Shown: positions 10,744 to 49,190 of the stretch, piece by piece
Layout of the letters: each line of letters begins with the position of its first letter
Numbering within the stretch: position 1 is the first letter of the stretch
Notes under the pieces: generated by a model
Databases searched by the model: none
What the model was told of the DNA's origin: nothing
What the model saw: only the letters and a program-made list of their open reading frames with translations
NCBI GenBank assembly: GCA_944326315.1
Contig: CALVDP010000008.1
Coordinates: 1 to 58,225, forward strand
DNA length: 58,225 nt
From: an uncultured Bacteroidales bacterium
GTDB lineage: Bacteria; Bacteroidota; Bacteroidia; Bacteroidales; UBA932
Direction of reading: 5' to 3'
Translations under genes and position numbers: made by a program

Positions 10744-10828
10744 TTTATCCGCCGGAAGATGTCTTGGGAAGATGCCTTTTCCGGTGATCCCATTTTGCTA
10801 ATTCTTACACACCCTAAAGGGGCTGGGT

Positions 10829-10960
10829 CAAAAGTCCCGAAGGGACCGCGACCGGAGGAAGCGATATCCCCCTAATAGGGGGTACAGGGGGTTAGGATGG
10901 GTCCAGTCTTTCGAAGAAAGACGTTTGAGGGTGACCAAAAGTCACTTTTGAGTCACCCTC
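10829..10960 (-). repeat. Dispersed hairpin-rich repeat, copy 1
   Basis: Read on the minus strand this copy has all parts of the element: a 34-base imperfect palindrome (stem GAGGGTGAC with GTCACCCTC, inner CAAAAG with CTTTTG), a second hairpin (GTCTTTC, TTC, GAAAGAC), the segment CATCCTAACCCCCTGTACC, a CCCCCTATTAGGGGG palindrome, then CCTCCGGTCGCGG and a GTCCC-TTC-GGGAC hairpin. It begins 4 bases after the tRNA-Arg 3' end and has the same orientation. Copies 2-4 are at 14693, 33451 and 49131. Copy 1 is the most compact full-length copy. Confidence 0.9.
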
Positions 10961-10963
10961 TTG

Positions 10964-11035
10964 TACCCCCGTGCGGAATCGAACCGCAACCGTCAGAACC
11001 GGAATCTGAAATTCTATCCATTAAACTACGGAGGC
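10964..11035 (-). tRNA. tRNA-Arg (anticodon CCG)
   Basis: A 72-base cloverleaf can be folded on the minus strand. The acceptor stem pairs GCCTCCG with CGGGGGT (one G-T pair at each of two places), the anticodon stem pairs TCAGA with TCTGA around the loop TTCCGGT, and the T arm is TGCGG-TTCGATT-CCGCA. The anticodon CCG reads the arginine codon CGG. CCA is not encoded, which is usual in this phylum. The 3' end abuts a dispersed repeat. Confidence 0.95.
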
Positions 11036-11100
11036 GAAACGGAGTGCAAATATACAAATTTTCATGAAAAAGAAAATCTGCAGGCCAAACTTATTTTCCG

Positions 11101-13443
11101 TTATTGTCCCTTGCACCATCTGTCAAGCCAGCCGAAGTACTCTCTGTGCCAGCAGAGTGCGTCCTGAGGCTTGGTTATCCAATGGTTTTCCTCCGGAAAT
11201 ATGACGAGTCTTGAAGGCACTCCCATCAGCTGCGCCGCGTTGTATGCCGCCATGCCCTGGTCTACCGGCACCCGGAAGTCCATACCTCCGTGAGTCACGA
11301 GCAGAGGGGTATGCCAGTTGGTCACGAATTTGTGAGGGGAGTTGGAATAATGTCGCCTTGCTGCCTGTGACGAACTCCATGGTGAGCCGCCCTGTCTGAT
11401 GCCCCCGAAAGTCTCACCGTCTCCTGCCGGGCCTGTGGCGGGATCGTGCGAGGCTTCGTAAACATGTAGACCACCGTTGTCCCAGTTCGGGAACCACATT
11501 TCTTCTGTTGTCATGTACATGTGCTCTTCATTGAAGATACCGGCATGCGCTACAAAAGCATCGAAAAGGTCGCCGTGCACCCCGCAGAGGTAGTATACCG
11601 AATATCCGCCGTAACTTGCCCCGCAGGCCGCCATCCTGCCTATGTATTTTTCAGCCATGAGGGCCTTGGCTGCAGATATGTAGTCCTGGATATTCAGTCC
11701 GCAATAATCTCCTGATATCTGTTCCGTCCATTCCTGTCCGAAAGCCGTGGTCCCGCGTCTGTTAGGCAGCACAACGACATAACCCTGTGAGGCCATCAGC
11801 CTGTAGTTCCACCTGTACGACCATCCCTGGCTCAATGTGCTCTGAGGACCGCCCAGACAGATGAGTATTGCCGGATAAGTCTTGTTTTCATCGAATTCCG
11901 GCGGGTATATCACCCATGTGAGCATGTCTTTGCCGTCAACTGTCCTGATATGTCGTGCTTCGGTACGTGTCTCCGCCAGTTTGTCAAGTATGTAGGCATT
12001 CTCCCTGGTGACAGGCCTGGCCGTGACATTGCCGGAATTCATGTCCAGGGCTACAAGTTCATCCGGGAAATCCATGCTGCACCAGCTTGCGTAGAGCGTT
12101 GTCTTTCCCTCCGAAGAAGAGATGTGGAATGGCGAGCTGAAGTCATACCACATGTCTTCTCCTGTTATCCTTGTGATGCTGCCGTCTTCAGTATCAGCCG
12201 CGAATATACCCTGCAGGCCTTCGGCAAGGGCGTTGAAATATATCTTGTCCGAAGATTCTTCCCATACAGGGGCCGCCGCATTGTATTTGAAGCCGGAGGT
12301 CAGGTCCCGGACATTTCCCAATACGGGAAGCCTTTCCTCTGGACTTCCTGCCGGAGCCTTCCATCCGATGTCCGCTATCATGAGCCTCTGCTTGTCAGCC
12401 TCGTACCCGTCCCTTTCCATACTCAGCCAGCATATCTTGCTTCCGTCCGGAGACCAGACGGGACATGTGTCATATCCTCCGCCGGTGACTATCCGGGTGC
12501 ATTTGCCGCTCCTGACATCGTAAATGTATATTTCAGAGTTCGTGGAGAAGGCGTATTCCTTCCCCGTGAGCTTCTTGCACGAGTAGGCTATCGCCCTGCT
12601 GTCAGGACTCCACGCAAGTTGCTCGATTCCGCTGAAAGGCTCTGCCGGCAGTTCGTAGATTTCTTTTTCGGAAGCAAGTATATCCGTGGAATTTTCAGGC
12701 CTTATGCTTTTCGGCTTGCCTGATTTCACGTTGACAGGGGCTATGAAGGTGTGCGGGACTTCAGTGACCCAATGATCCCAGTGTCTGTACATGAGATTGT
12801 CTGCAGTGAATGCGTCGGCCTTGTCGAGGTCCGGCCAAATGTCTGACGGTCTTTTGACCGCTCCTTTCACTTTGCTCGTGTACATGAGCATCGTACCGTC
12901 CGGGGACAGCTTGAATTCGGAGATGCCGGCCGGAATGTCGGATATCTGTTCTTCGTTTTTCAGTATCCAGCTTCCGTTCCTGGCATGGCGCAGTTCTGCT
13001 ATCCAGATCTGCCCCTCCTTTATGTACAGAAGTTTCTTCCCTCCGTCACACCAGCGTGCGTTGCTGATGCTCTGGGCCGAAGCCGTAAGCTGCTGCCGTC
13101 CGCTTCCGTCCATGGCGCATATATACAGGTTGCCGCATGACCTGTTCTCGGGTACCGATGTATAGGATATGTTGTAAAGGATAAACGACCCGTCAGGAGA
13201 TACCTGCGGATCGGACACCCTGCCGAATGACAGCAGCACCTCAGGTGTCATCTTCCCGTCTGTAATGTCGGGCTCCGGCATGGCTATGTAGCCGGCCTCT
13301 GTCTTTCTTCCCATGATATTGTAACTTCTTTTCACCAGAAACGATACGGCGTAGATCAGGCATGCAAGTCCTGCAATCCAAGTCAGAACCTGCAGGAAAT
13401 TCCTCATCTGCCTTTTTCCCTTCATTTTTCTGCTATTGTCCAT
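11101..13443 (-). CDS. S9 family serine peptidase (prolyl oligopeptidase type), membrane-anchored
   Basis: A 780-residue peptidase that probably removes dipeptides or acyl-peptides outside the cytoplasm. A short basic N-terminus is followed by one hydrophobic segment (residues about 16-32), suggesting a signal anchor. Beta-propeller-type repeats follow (SPDGSFILY, SPDGTMLMY, SPDSRAIAY, SPDGSKICW). The C-terminal hydrolase domain has nucleophile S610 (GASYGGYS), acid D722 (GGMDFRVP) and base H754 (EENHW). Start codons at 13443, 13425 and 13407 are all possible. A stretch near residue 660-700 (MWFPNWDNGG, then a Gly/Ser-rich loop) is typical of the bacterial enzymes. It is probably monocistronic. 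Confidence 0.92.
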   Translation of the reverse strand: MDNSRKMKGKRQMRNFLQVLTWIAGLACLIYAVSFLVKRSYNIMGRKTEAGYIAMPEPDITDGKMTPEVLLSFGRVSDPQVSPDGSFILYNISYTSVPENRSCGNLYICAMDGSGRQQLTASAQSISNARWCDGGKKLLYIKEGQIWIAELRHARNGSWILKNEEQISDIPAGISEFKLSPDGTMLMYTSKVKGAVKRPSDIWPDLDKADAFTADNLMYRHWDHWVTEVPHTFIAPVNVKSGKPKSIRPENSTDILASEKEIYELPAEPFSGIEQLAWSPDSRAIAYSCKKLTGKEYAFSTNSEIYIYDVRSGKCTRIVTGGGYDTCPVWSPDGSKICWLSMERDGYEADKQRLMIADIGWKAPAGSPEERLPVLGNVRDLTSGFKYNAAAPVWEESSDKIYFNALAEGLQGIFAADTEDGSITRITGEDMWYDFSSPFHISSSEGKTTLYASWCSMDFPDELVALDMNSGNVTARPVTRENAYILDKLAETRTEARHIRTVDGKDMLTWVIYPPEFDENKTYPAILICLGGPQSTLSQGWSYRWNYRLMASQGYVVVLPNRRGTTAFGQEWTEQISGDYCGLNIQDYISAAKALMAEKYIGRMAACGASYGGYSVYYLCGVHGDLFDAFVAHAGIFNEEHMYMTTEEMWFPNWDNGGLHVYEASHDPATGPAGDGETFGGIRQGGSPWSSSQAARRHYSNSPHKFVTNWHTPLLVTHGGMDFRVPVDQGMAAYNAAQLMGVPSRLVIFPEENHWITKPQDALCWHREYFGWLDRWCKGQ

Positions 13444-13481
13444 GTCATATCATATTAACATCAATCCATTATATAGTATTA

Positions 13482-13540
13482 TAACGCCAGTTCGACGAAT
13501 TATTATGTTCAGTATCAAAGATTCCGTCGAACTGACGTTA
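13482..13540 (+). repeat. Inverted repeat upstream of the S9 peptidase gene
   Basis: TAACGCCAGTTCGACGAAT at 13482-13500 pairs with ATTCCGTCGAACTGACGTTA at 13521-13540, with two or three mismatches, around a 20-base loop. It lies about 40 bases ahead of the peptidase ATG. It may be an operator, an RNA hairpin in the leader, or the remains of a small mobile element. No target duplication was seen. Confidence 0.6.
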
Positions 13541-13586
13541 CGATTTCTTCGAAATCCATTTCCTTTTTCGTGTCACCCCTCTTAAA

Positions 13587-13608
13587 TTCTCCCCTGCGTA
13601 GGGGAGAA
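13587..13608 (+). repeat. Perfect hairpin in the gap between peptidase and WYL regulator
   Basis: TTCTCCCCT and AGGGGAGAA pair perfectly around a GCGT loop. It lies 75 bases after the leftward WYL gene ends at 13683, so it could help end that transcript, but neither side has a T run. The surrounding 13541-13682 has no gene. Confidence 0.6.
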
Positions 13609-13682
13609 CTTACATCGGACTTCGTCCTCCATAGAGGTAATTCTATGAAATTCATTCCATTCATTTCATCGAATTCACGTTA

Positions 13683-14606
13683 TTATATATAAAGTCTGTA
13701 CATTTCCTCAGTCAATTCCTTCATTTTCATCCTGATATTTTCAGGAGACAGTACCTCTATGCCCGGACCGTGGCTCAGGAATTCCAGGTAGAGTCCCTTG
13801 TCCGGAGATACAAATATGGAAAAAGTTGTCGACATTCCGTCATTTCCCACTATAGTCTGGGTATGGTGGAGCGGCAGATCCCTGATATATGACGCCTCAT
13901 TCCCGAAGGCCTTGAACAGAATAGTGCAGGCCTTGCCGGAAGGAAGGTAGCTGCCGAAAGATGTGGAGAACAGGGCGTCAATGTCGAAGTCTCCGGGCAT
14001 GGCAAAAGTGTCGGGAAGGACTTCCATGGATTCTATCCTGTCCAGGGAATAGACCCTGCAGCTGCCTTTTTCCTCTGCCAGGCCCACAAGATACCATCGT
14101 TGTGCGGATTCCTTGATTCCATAAGGATGCACCCTTCTGACATCCGGCTCCGATGCTCCGTATTTCCTGTAGCTTATCCTGACGATATTGTTTTCCTGCA
14201 TGGCTGTCATCAGAGGGGAAAGGTATTTTTTTCCGGACGGAACTTCTTCCACGGAAAGCCTTCCCGAGAGGCCTTCCTTCGAGAGAGACAGAAGATTGTT
14301 GACCGTGAAAGTGTCTATCAGCCATGATATTCCGGTGTCTCTGTCGGAAATATCCACGCTGTTCCTGATAAAATACCGGTTTGTGCTCCTGTTGCATTCT
14401 ATGTCTATGCCGAACACATCCGAGATGGCTTGCCTGTGGTTGTTGAAGGACCTTCTTGGATATGAGCCTCCGAACTTCCTTTCCCAGGAGGAACTGAGTT
14501 CCTCAAGGCTGATTCCATTGTCTCCGGCGGTGATGAATTTCTGGACGAGCCAGATGTATTTGTTAAGCAGTTCAGTGACCATTTTCCCGAATTTGTCTTC
14601 AAACAT
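13683..14606 (-). CDS. WYL-domain transcriptional regulator
   Basis: A 307-residue regulator with an N-terminal helix-turn-helix region (about residues 15-75) and a WYL domain around residues 130-210 that contains RWYLVG, the motif that names the family, preceded by RRVHPYGIKES. WYL proteins often sense a small ligand or nucleic acid and repress or activate nearby genes. Here the gene diverges from the GH3 cluster across a 521-base region that holds a dispersed repeat and two tandem palindromic promoters, so control of that cluster is a plausible inference. Start at 14606 (MFEDKFGK) fits; no better start was seen. Confidence 0.9.
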   Translation of the reverse strand: MFEDKFGKMVTELLNKYIWLVQKFITAGDNGISLEELSSSWERKFGGSYPRRSFNNHRQAISDVFGIDIECNRSTNRYFIRNSVDISDRDTGISWLIDTFTVNNLLSLSKEGLSGRLSVEEVPSGKKYLSPLMTAMQENNIVRISYRKYGASEPDVRRVHPYGIKESAQRWYLVGLAEEKGSCRVYSLDRIESMEVLPDTFAMPGDFDIDALFSTSFGSYLPSGKACTILFKAFGNEASYIRDLPLHHTQTIVGNDGMSTTFSIFVSPDKGLYLEFLSHGPGIEVLSPENIRMKMKELTEEMYRLYI

Positions 14607-14692
14607 AGTTAAAATTTATGATTATCCGCAATAATACTCCGTTCGTGTCATTTCGACGTGAGGATAATCTATCGCCATGGGGTGCCCCCGAA

Positions 14693-14894
14693 GAGGGTGA
14701 CTCAAAAGTGACTTTTGGTCACCCTCAAACGTCTTTCTTCGAAACCATTGACGAACAGAGTGCAATTGTGCCTGCACAAATTGCCGAGGTGAGGATATGG
14801 AAAAACTTCAGTTTAACCTGGACCCATCCTAACCCCCTGTACCCCCTATTAGGGGGATCTCGCTCCCTCCGGTCGCGGTCCCTTCGGGACTTTT
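14693..14894 (+). repeat. Dispersed hairpin-rich repeat, copy 2, with a 74-base insert
   Basis: This copy runs in the plus direction. Its first palindrome (14695-14724 core) is identical to copy 1. The second hairpin is broken: after GTCTTTCTTCGAAA comes a 74-base insert (14745-14818) absent from copies 1 and 3, then the sequence resumes with TGGACCCATCCTAACC and continues to the GTCCC-TTC-GGGAC hairpin. The insert has its own imperfect inverted repeat (GCAATTGTGC with GCACAAATTGC). The copy lies between two divergent genes, so it is not simply a terminator there. Confidence 0.88.
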
Positions 14895-14958
14895 CCTTCA
14901 TGTCCTTCATGCTTTTGTTTCATGATTCTGAGATATTTAACCTGCGGCCACTTATCCT

Positions 14959-15024
14959 GTGGCGCCTCGGCAATGCAAATCAAACAAGTTTGTTTGCATT
15001 GCTCTCGGCTTCTTGGTATATTTG
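14959..15024 (+). repeat. Palindromic promoter repeat, tandem copy 1
   Basis: This 66-base unit is repeated without change at 15042-15107 (period 83 bases). It holds a near-perfect palindrome at 14970-15002 (GCAATGCAAA, T, CAAAC, AA, GTTTG, TTTGCATTGC) that covers the -33 box of a promoter ending the unit. See the promoter entries for the boxes. Confidence 0.95.
14993..15024 (+). promoter_or_regulatory. Distal promoter (P1) of the GH3 cluster
   Basis: TTTG at 14993-14996, a 20-base spacer, then TATATTTG at 15017-15024 match the Bacteroidota consensus exactly. The TTTG lies in the right arm of the palindrome, so a protein bound there should block or modify polymerase binding. A transcript from P1 would contain the whole second palindrome in its leader. 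Confidence 0.8.
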
Positions 15025-15041
15025 ACTTCGTCATTTATACA

Positions 15042-15107
15042 GTGGCGCCTCGGCAATGCAAATCAAACAAGTTTGTTTGCATTGCTCTCGGCTTCTTGGT
15101 ATATTTG
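15042..15107 (+). repeat. Palindromic promoter repeat, tandem copy 2
   Basis: Identical to the unit at 14959-15024, including the palindrome (15053-15085) and the promoter. The 17 bases between the two units are not repeated. Confidence 0.95.
15076..15107 (+). promoter_or_regulatory. Proximal promoter (P2) of the GH3 cluster
   Basis: TTTG at 15076-15079, a 20-base spacer and TATATTTG at 15100-15107. It would start transcription roughly 10-15 bases before the GH3 ATG at 15128. Confidence 0.82.
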
Positions 15108-33450: not shown

Positions 33451-33653
33451 AAGGAGTGACCCAAAAGTCCTTTTGGGTCACTCCTCAAACGTCTTTCTTC
33501 GAAAGACAAAATCCATCCTAACCCCCTGCACCCCGGGGATTAACCTTGACAGGTTTTCCTCCTTCGCACCTCAGGAATATCCGTACCAGTCCGGTATTCC
33601 ATTCGGTTTGTCGTCGGTTTCGCTTCCTCCGGTCGCGGTCCCTTCGGGACTTT
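33451..33653 (+). repeat. Dispersed hairpin-rich repeat, copy 3, with an internal insert
   Basis: The first palindrome (33452-33485) is perfect: AGGAGTGACCCAAAAG, TC, then its exact complement. It differs from copies 1 and 2 at three paired positions and each change is compensated. The second hairpin (GTCTTTC-TTC-GAAAGAC) is intact. After CATCCTAACCCCCTGCACCC the palindromic CCCCCTATTAGGGGG is replaced by about 80 unrelated bases, and the element resumes at TCGCTTCCTCCGG and ends with GTCCC-TTC-GGGAC. It fills most of the 368-base gap between two leftward genes. Confidence 0.88.
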
Positions 33654-49130: not shown

Positions 49131-49190
49131 GACAGAGGGTGACCAAAAGTCGATTTTTGGTCACCCTCAAACGTATTTCTGCGAAAGACC
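49131..49190 (+). repeat. Dispersed hairpin-rich repeat, copy 4 (truncated)
   Basis: This copy has the first palindrome (49135-49168, stem GAGGGTGACCAAAA with its complement, 14 bases) and a worn second hairpin (GTATTTC, TGC, GAAAGAC), then stops. It lies between the convergent ends of susD and the phosphoesterase gene. The stem differs from copies 1-3 but pairs fully. Confidence 0.85.

Follow-up and report, generated by a model that had tools for sequence, protein, structure and literature searches.

BOX elements are modular, group IIC introns settle just downstream of terminator hairpins, and some IS elements likewise insert beside hairpins. The Rickettsia palindromic elements (RPEs) measure 105–150 bp, fall into several families and occur both between genes and in frame within protein genes, according to the accessible parts of their descriptions (PMC2229807, PMC10969869). 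The CGTC- and GTAG-tagged REPs are short palindromes located downstream of coding sequences, for the most part where the flanking genes converge or share a strand, and the CGTC kind is formed by an unpaired CGTC tag, a stem of 8–9 bp, a loop of 4–5 and a tail that is mostly CCA (PMC3733652, accessible part). In pneumococci, the BOX, RUP and SPRITE elements insert into one another and some of them are terminator-like, as far as the accessible text of PMC10969869 goes. Besides these elements, template-switch mutations are described, in the portion of PMC8794818 available to us, as producing reverse-complement copies that form perfect hairpins.

The element considered here is nearest to the RPE-like palindromic elements. 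It was noticed in a stretch of 58,225 nucleotides (the window), which is one contig (C8) of the 103 that compose a 2.42 Mb assembly from an uncultured Bacteroidales bacterium (G000, the window's genome), and it is formed by a first palindrome, P, and a core. It resembles RPEs in being palindromic and in having one core located in an open, metG-like frame (L179); it differs from them in the ordered multi-hairpin core, in a bias towards gene ends and in an arm copied from the target at some sites, of which the RPE descriptions make no mention in their accessible parts (PMC2229807, PMC10969869). In comparison with REP and BIME sequences, several different hairpins follow one another here in a fixed order and no Y1 transposase was found in the window's genome; the CGTC-tagged REP was ruled out, as the A hairpin described below has its GTC within a 7-bp stem and a loop of 3 nt. 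An arm of P is gene-derived here, whereas none is mentioned for BOX, RUP and SPRITE in the accessible part of PMC10969869, and template-switch mutations are not tied to a conserved inserted sequence in that of PMC8794818, whereas a core is present here. Unlike group IIC introns, the element has no Rfam match and seven of the carriers tested have no reverse transcriptase. The preliminary description recognised no known family name for the repeat, in agreement with the lack of any match among the families tested and in Rfam, where six loci (five of them with copies) gave nothing up to E = 1. The literature searched, which left out most subscription papers, held no description of the element family. 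At the Rfam gathering level the window contains only an FMN riboswitch (RF00050, 1571–1694, minus strand, 112.6 bits) and tRNA.

Anatomy and distribution of the element

Copy 1 (10829–10960, minus strand) is a complete P plus core that begins 2 nt after a tRNA-Arg(CCG) (10963–11035, minus strand). It comprises, all on the minus strand, the P hairpin (10927–10960, GAGGGTGAC..GTCACCCTC), the A hairpin GTCTTTC-TTC-GAAAGAC (10906–10922), the T hairpin CCCCC-TATTA-GGGGG (10868–10882), which flanks the conserved C-rich sequence ATCCTAACCCCCTGTA on its 3' side, the H1 hairpin CGCTTCC-TCC-GGTCGCG (10847–10863), which covaries between species and has two inner pairs unpaired in this copy, and the H2 hairpin GTCCC-TTC-GGGAC (10834–10846). 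The right-end sequence GGGGCTGGGTCAAAAGT (10819–10835, plus strand) corresponds, inverted and imperfectly, to GAGGGTGACTCAAAAGT of the left end, with agreement at 13 of 17 positions, or at 14 of 17 with the commoner GAGGCTGGGTCAAAAGT. The folding of copy 1 beats all 200 dinucleotide shuffles on each strand, with z values for the two strands of −4.7 and −4.0 as RNA and of −6.1 and −6.2 as DNA.

The other three copies lie on the plus strand. Copy 2 (14693–14894) has P, an A hairpin that an insert interrupts, the insert module S (14745–14817, CCATTGACGAACAGAG..CAGTTTAAC), which is found at the same place in other copies, and then the C-rich stretch, T, H1 and H2. Copy 3 (33452–33653) is formed by P (33452–33485, AGGAGTGACCCAAAA-GTCC-TTTTGGGTCACTCCT), A, the C-rich stretch, an insert V placed between this stretch and H1, and H1 and H2; the T hairpin is listed for copies 1 and 2. 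Copy 4 (49135–49189), 17 nt past the stop of an open frame, has only P and an A-like hairpin, without the C-rich segment or the GTCCC hairpin. The order of parts first reported for four copies is therefore borne out by the full series of copies 1–3, and to speak of four equivalent copies is an overstatement because copy 4 is truncated. The compensatory changes reported in the first palindrome of copy 3 are real (GGAGTGACCC..GGGTCACTCC). Three of the window copies have a P of GGGTGAC type; the P of copy 3, which is site-specific by the motif rule used, overlaps no gene end, and none of the four shows target copying.

The repetition of the element is not due to chance. A BLAST search of copy 1 against its own genome gave 61 matching pieces at E ≤ 10 and 56 at E ≤ 1e-3, counted as pieces and not as elements, since one element may give two or three. 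Copy 1 and five further full copies in the genome are identical over all 132 nt, an identity that points to recent spread. Part of the spread in G000 is plain hitch-hiking, since whole or part of the hairpin element is carried inside 5 of the 30 complete copies of a MITE (L005, L018, L035, L044 and L046). This MITE, of 197 nt and with ACGT-ended terminal repeats, has 30 or more complete copies, each in its own flanking sequence, and 27 of 30 have target duplications of 6–9 nt. A complete one is located in the window at 13484–13680 (ACGCCAGTTCGACG..GAATTCACGT), flanked by the 7-nt duplication TATTATA (13477–13483 and 13681–13687). Close to where an open frame on the plus strand starts, the window also holds two tandem 76-nt copies of another dispersed repeat (14949–15107, GCCTCGGCAATGCAAATC..GCTCTCGGCTTCTTGGTATATTTG), whose ending, TATATTTG, resembles a Bacteroidota −7 box.

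The dispersion proposed from the window alone extends beyond it and beyond its genome, where the covariance-model search suggested in the preliminary description found further copies. BLAST in 60 relatives, 36 of them congeners, gave a single weak match. Scanning species genomes with a sequence pattern yielded 55 stretches, distributed over 11 Bacteroidales genomes or bins, of which two bear the name Candidatus Cryptobacteroides; the C-rich stretch was fixed in the scan pattern, so that its conservation comes partly from the selection of hits. The covariance model of the core found 2–33 copies per genome in 8 MAGs, which are 8 of those 11 genomes and have at least one match each by construction. 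Among 61 genomes of the genus, the core model matched 17 including G000 (16 of the 60 sampled congeners), mostly weakly, with G000 and G073 alone exceeding 40 bits; the other 44 had no match at E ≤ 1e-3 under strict filters that lose weak matches. Many of the weak congener matches retain, by eye, the palindrome, a CCCCCTGCACCCCC-like sequence and more hairpins. G073 has the element at the same places as the MAG G067, which identifies G067 as a congener. An exact core pattern, which would overlook divergent copies, was found among 295 genomes of the order in G000, in G093 (same genus) and at two single places in other families (L295, L296), which were set aside as they are without H1 and H2 by eye. 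The genus name Cryptobacteroides for the carriers is itself inferred, and MAG assemblies break at these repeats. A plasmid collection gave no match to the element and viral contigs gave nothing for one exact pattern; in a phage collection, each of four records had a single match of 29 nt (E 3e-3), which was taken as chance.

Across species the order is P, A, a C-rich stretch that includes CCTAACCCCC, either an optional hairpin or a short TGCA, T, H1, H2 and a T-rich end. The consensus of A is GTCTTTC-TNC-GAAAGAC and that of T is CCCC-TATTA-GGGG; A is missing from some copies, and optional inserts (S, U, T' and V) occupy fixed places in the order, some of them common to other species. The sequence of H1 and H2 is rewritten between species with the pairing mostly kept. 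In the core alignment, 5 of 17 pairs are changed on both sides, giving 28 two-sided cells against 10.3 in shuffles, while the number of pair types is not above that of shuffles (344 of 500) and in 14 of the 29 rows two pairs of H1 do not form. An automatic consensus fold has 24 pairs, 4 of them with two-sided changes. The alignments, A1 and A2, comprise 40 of 45 and 29 of 30 listed sequences.

The loops are mostly T-N-C with a variable N, in 91 of 103 A hairpins and 111 of 133 H2 hairpins retained by the script. T-N-C on one strand is G-N-A on the opposite one, a very stable triloop, but as a clue to the strand these loops are suggestive only. The balance of G.T and A.C mismatches (3 to 3 in the A hairpin, 6 to 1 in H2) counts too few cases to pick an RNA strand.

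The first palindrome and neighbouring gene ends

Core matches of at least 15 bits define 157 distinct sites, 29 of them in the window's genome, and 96 have enough flank for statistics on P. A hairpin scoring at least 10 stands beside the core at 69 of the 96 sites against 2 of 288 block shuffles, although many of the 69 are of one GGGTGAC type and hence not independent; with a score of at least 13 the figures are 40 of 96 and none. In 997,657 bases of loci, which were fetched around cores, 46 of the 59 distinct palindromes (stem of at least 14, loop of 3–8) lie within 120 nt of a core match.

Where P is not of the GGGTGAC type it varies from site to site, and at many sites its left arm is the gene end. 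The left arm overlaps the end of a gene or tRNA at 13 of the 24 such sites with a hairpin score of at least 10, and the right arm there repeats the gene end in inverted form; the remaining 11 have no gene-end overlap by a crude ORF rule. Examples are an alaS-like gene (L114), a gene in L132, a purA-like gene (L193), tRNA ends in L184 and L187, yidD in the genomes G064 and G068, and a MltD-like gene in the window's genome (L308), where gene names come from reading the translations and the tRNAs of L184, L187 and others were confirmed with ARAGORN. Three more tRNA-like sites, in G011, show the left-arm overlap by reading, outside the ARAGORN confirmation. At L254 and L237 (G088) the gene-end palindrome is on the H2 side of the core, and the core may be inserted in reverse orientation as well.

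Covariation in P is marked, GGGTGAC-type copies included: in 25 distinct P hairpins from several genomes, hand-picked for difference, 9 of 11 pairs are changed on both sides, and the 35 two-sided cells, against 10.0 ± 2.1 in shuffles, were reached by none of 500 shuffles. The preliminary description had concluded from such changes in the window that the structure is kept and not the sequence. The picture of a dispersed, covarying element built of hairpins stands; the reason offered for the covariation does not carry over to every site, as some right arms are the inverted end of the neighbouring gene, and templated copying thus explains the joint changes at least as well as selection on structure.

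The setting of the element agrees with a preference for gene ends. Its 65 intergenic sites lie between 31 convergent, 29 same-strand and 5 divergent gene pairs, as counted with a rule-of-thumb ORF call in few genomes and without a matched background. The preliminary description took the variety of contexts to mean that the element would not be simply a terminator, but these contexts look far from random. Sufficient context was available at 77 sites, of which 11 carried an intragenic flag (checked in part) and 1 was at an edge. One core (L179, around 1502) lies within an open 1914-nt frame, the one read as metG-like, and is a possible in-frame protein insertion such as those of Rickettsia palindromic elements. 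Another (L258, around 1507) is found inside an open frame of 1863 nt whose reading suggests murE.

A direct comparison is possible with orthologous gene ends that are free of the element. For yidD, 58 of 61 genomes matched; the best 30 of the 58 were fetched and 28 were readable. The 26 orthologues without core-like sequence have hairpin scores of 2–8 at the stop, and two others with core-like sequence within 200 nt score 9 (G011) and 8 (G028), in comparison with 13 and 18 in the filled genomes G064 and G068, which were reached through their loci and need not be close kin of the empty ones. For the MltD-like gene, the best 30 of 54 were fetched, of which 11 were readable and 19 unreadable; the ten readable empty ends score 3 to 6 against 19 in the filled G000, and the empty end of G073 is almost identical to that of G000. 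The absence of the hairpin from the empty ends implies that at these two genes, the ones covered by the comparison, the inverted arm comes with the element.

The site-specific layout is then a left arm formed by the last bases of the gene (also labelled S, apart from the insert module), a right arm R that is their inverted copy, the core and sometimes a second loop and R, forming a direct repeat whose length varies. The second loop and R follow the core at L308, L149, L178, L180, L193 and L212; the second repeat runs on into A or the core at L205, L132 and L249; and whole units are repeated in tandem at L186 and L229, with a unit and part of another in L132. The array of L186 holds two full R-plus-core units and a partial third. 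Of the 96 sites, 16 have a loop-plus-R direct repeat scoring at least 13 and 22 have one of at least 10; among 282 controls with swapped partners the corresponding counts are 3 and 18. At most sites the second repeat is thus not clear (9 of 29 site-specific sites show it), and no short target duplication was seen by eye around solo copies.

A proposed insertion by fold-back copying and its alternatives

We are inclined to think that these are small non-coding, non-autonomous mobile elements which, in Bacteroidales resembling Candidatus Cryptobacteroides, occupy for the most part the 3' ends of genes and tRNAs, and that their insertion and a fold-back copying of the target are coupled. The steps of the mechanism go beyond the sequence facts. 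At the terminus of the gene, a 3' end would snap back on itself and copy roughly 10–23 nt of the gene end into R; synthesis would switch to the core and then over-run into a partial second unit. Fold-back copying, insertion and over-run in one event would explain the arm, the core and the second repeat together, and the outcome would be a gene end capped by a strong hairpin. The GGGTGAC-type copies, those of the window included, may represent lineages whose P moves along with the core. In its most specific form, the proposal is that insertion reverse-copies the target end by snapped-back priming at the gene end or terminator hairpin, adds the core and over-runs as if from a small circular template, so that the element would be tailored to its host without a guide or a dedicated transposase; we put this forward tentatively and hold it for less likely than not as a whole. 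With regard to a possible engine, the Y1 transposase (PF01797) had 0 matches in the assembled sequence of G000, which is 95.6% complete, and mobilisation by a RAYT was rejected on this ground. A reverse transcriptase (PF00078) is present in G068, G061 and G011 and was not found in the assembled sequence of G000 and G062–G067, and with seven carriers lacking it, it was rejected as a shared engine.

The alternatives overlap one another and the fold-back reading, and their probabilities need not add up to one. The arm and the core could have come by two separate events, in which template-switch mutations make or repair gene-end hairpins and the core inserts beside them later. The accessible part of PMC8794818 reports that template switching makes and keeps perfect stems, and the loop-plus-R direct repeat resembles a target duplication; however, long perfect palindromes away from cores are uncommon (13 of 59 in the loci examined), and among the gene ends that lack a full core, 28 of yidD and 10 of the MltD-like gene, none scores 10 or more, which leaves this succession doubtful in our opinion.

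A structured 3'-UTR RNA, serving as a processing, stability or termination signal, could also be under selection, in which case the covariation of P, H1 and H2 and the pairing of P would reflect RNA function. The stable folds and the 3'-end context fit such a role, and so does the core at the yidD end in two genomes with a P that matches each gene's own sequence. We consider it unlikely, because the element is patchy (44 of 61 genus genomes without a match and most others weak), its 132-nt identical copies point to recent spread, the mismatches single out no RNA strand, and folding is no less marked as DNA than as RNA. That it is an ordinary MITE or REP, with a transposase recognising the imperfect terminal repeats (GAGGGTGACTCAAAAGT / GAGGCTGGGTCAAAAGT) and with P varying by drift and repair, is quite unlikely: the ends of GGGTGAC-type copies do match inversely at 14 of 17 positions and 5 of the 30 complete copies of a genuine MITE hold the element in whole or in part, yet the P arms that copy the local gene end are left unexplained, no target duplication was seen by eye at solo copies and no Y1 transposase was found in G000.

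Beyond this family, the comparison carries a warning, since compensatory changes in a stem can stem from templated copying and not from selection on an RNA. The origin and spread of REP, RPE and similar small palindromic repeats in the absence of an obvious enzyme pose a question, acknowledged for CGTC REPs in the accessible part of PMC3733652. Insertion of the element described here seems to leave a chemical trace, namely an inverted copy of the target, which empty sites lack, and this makes the question testable with strain pairs.
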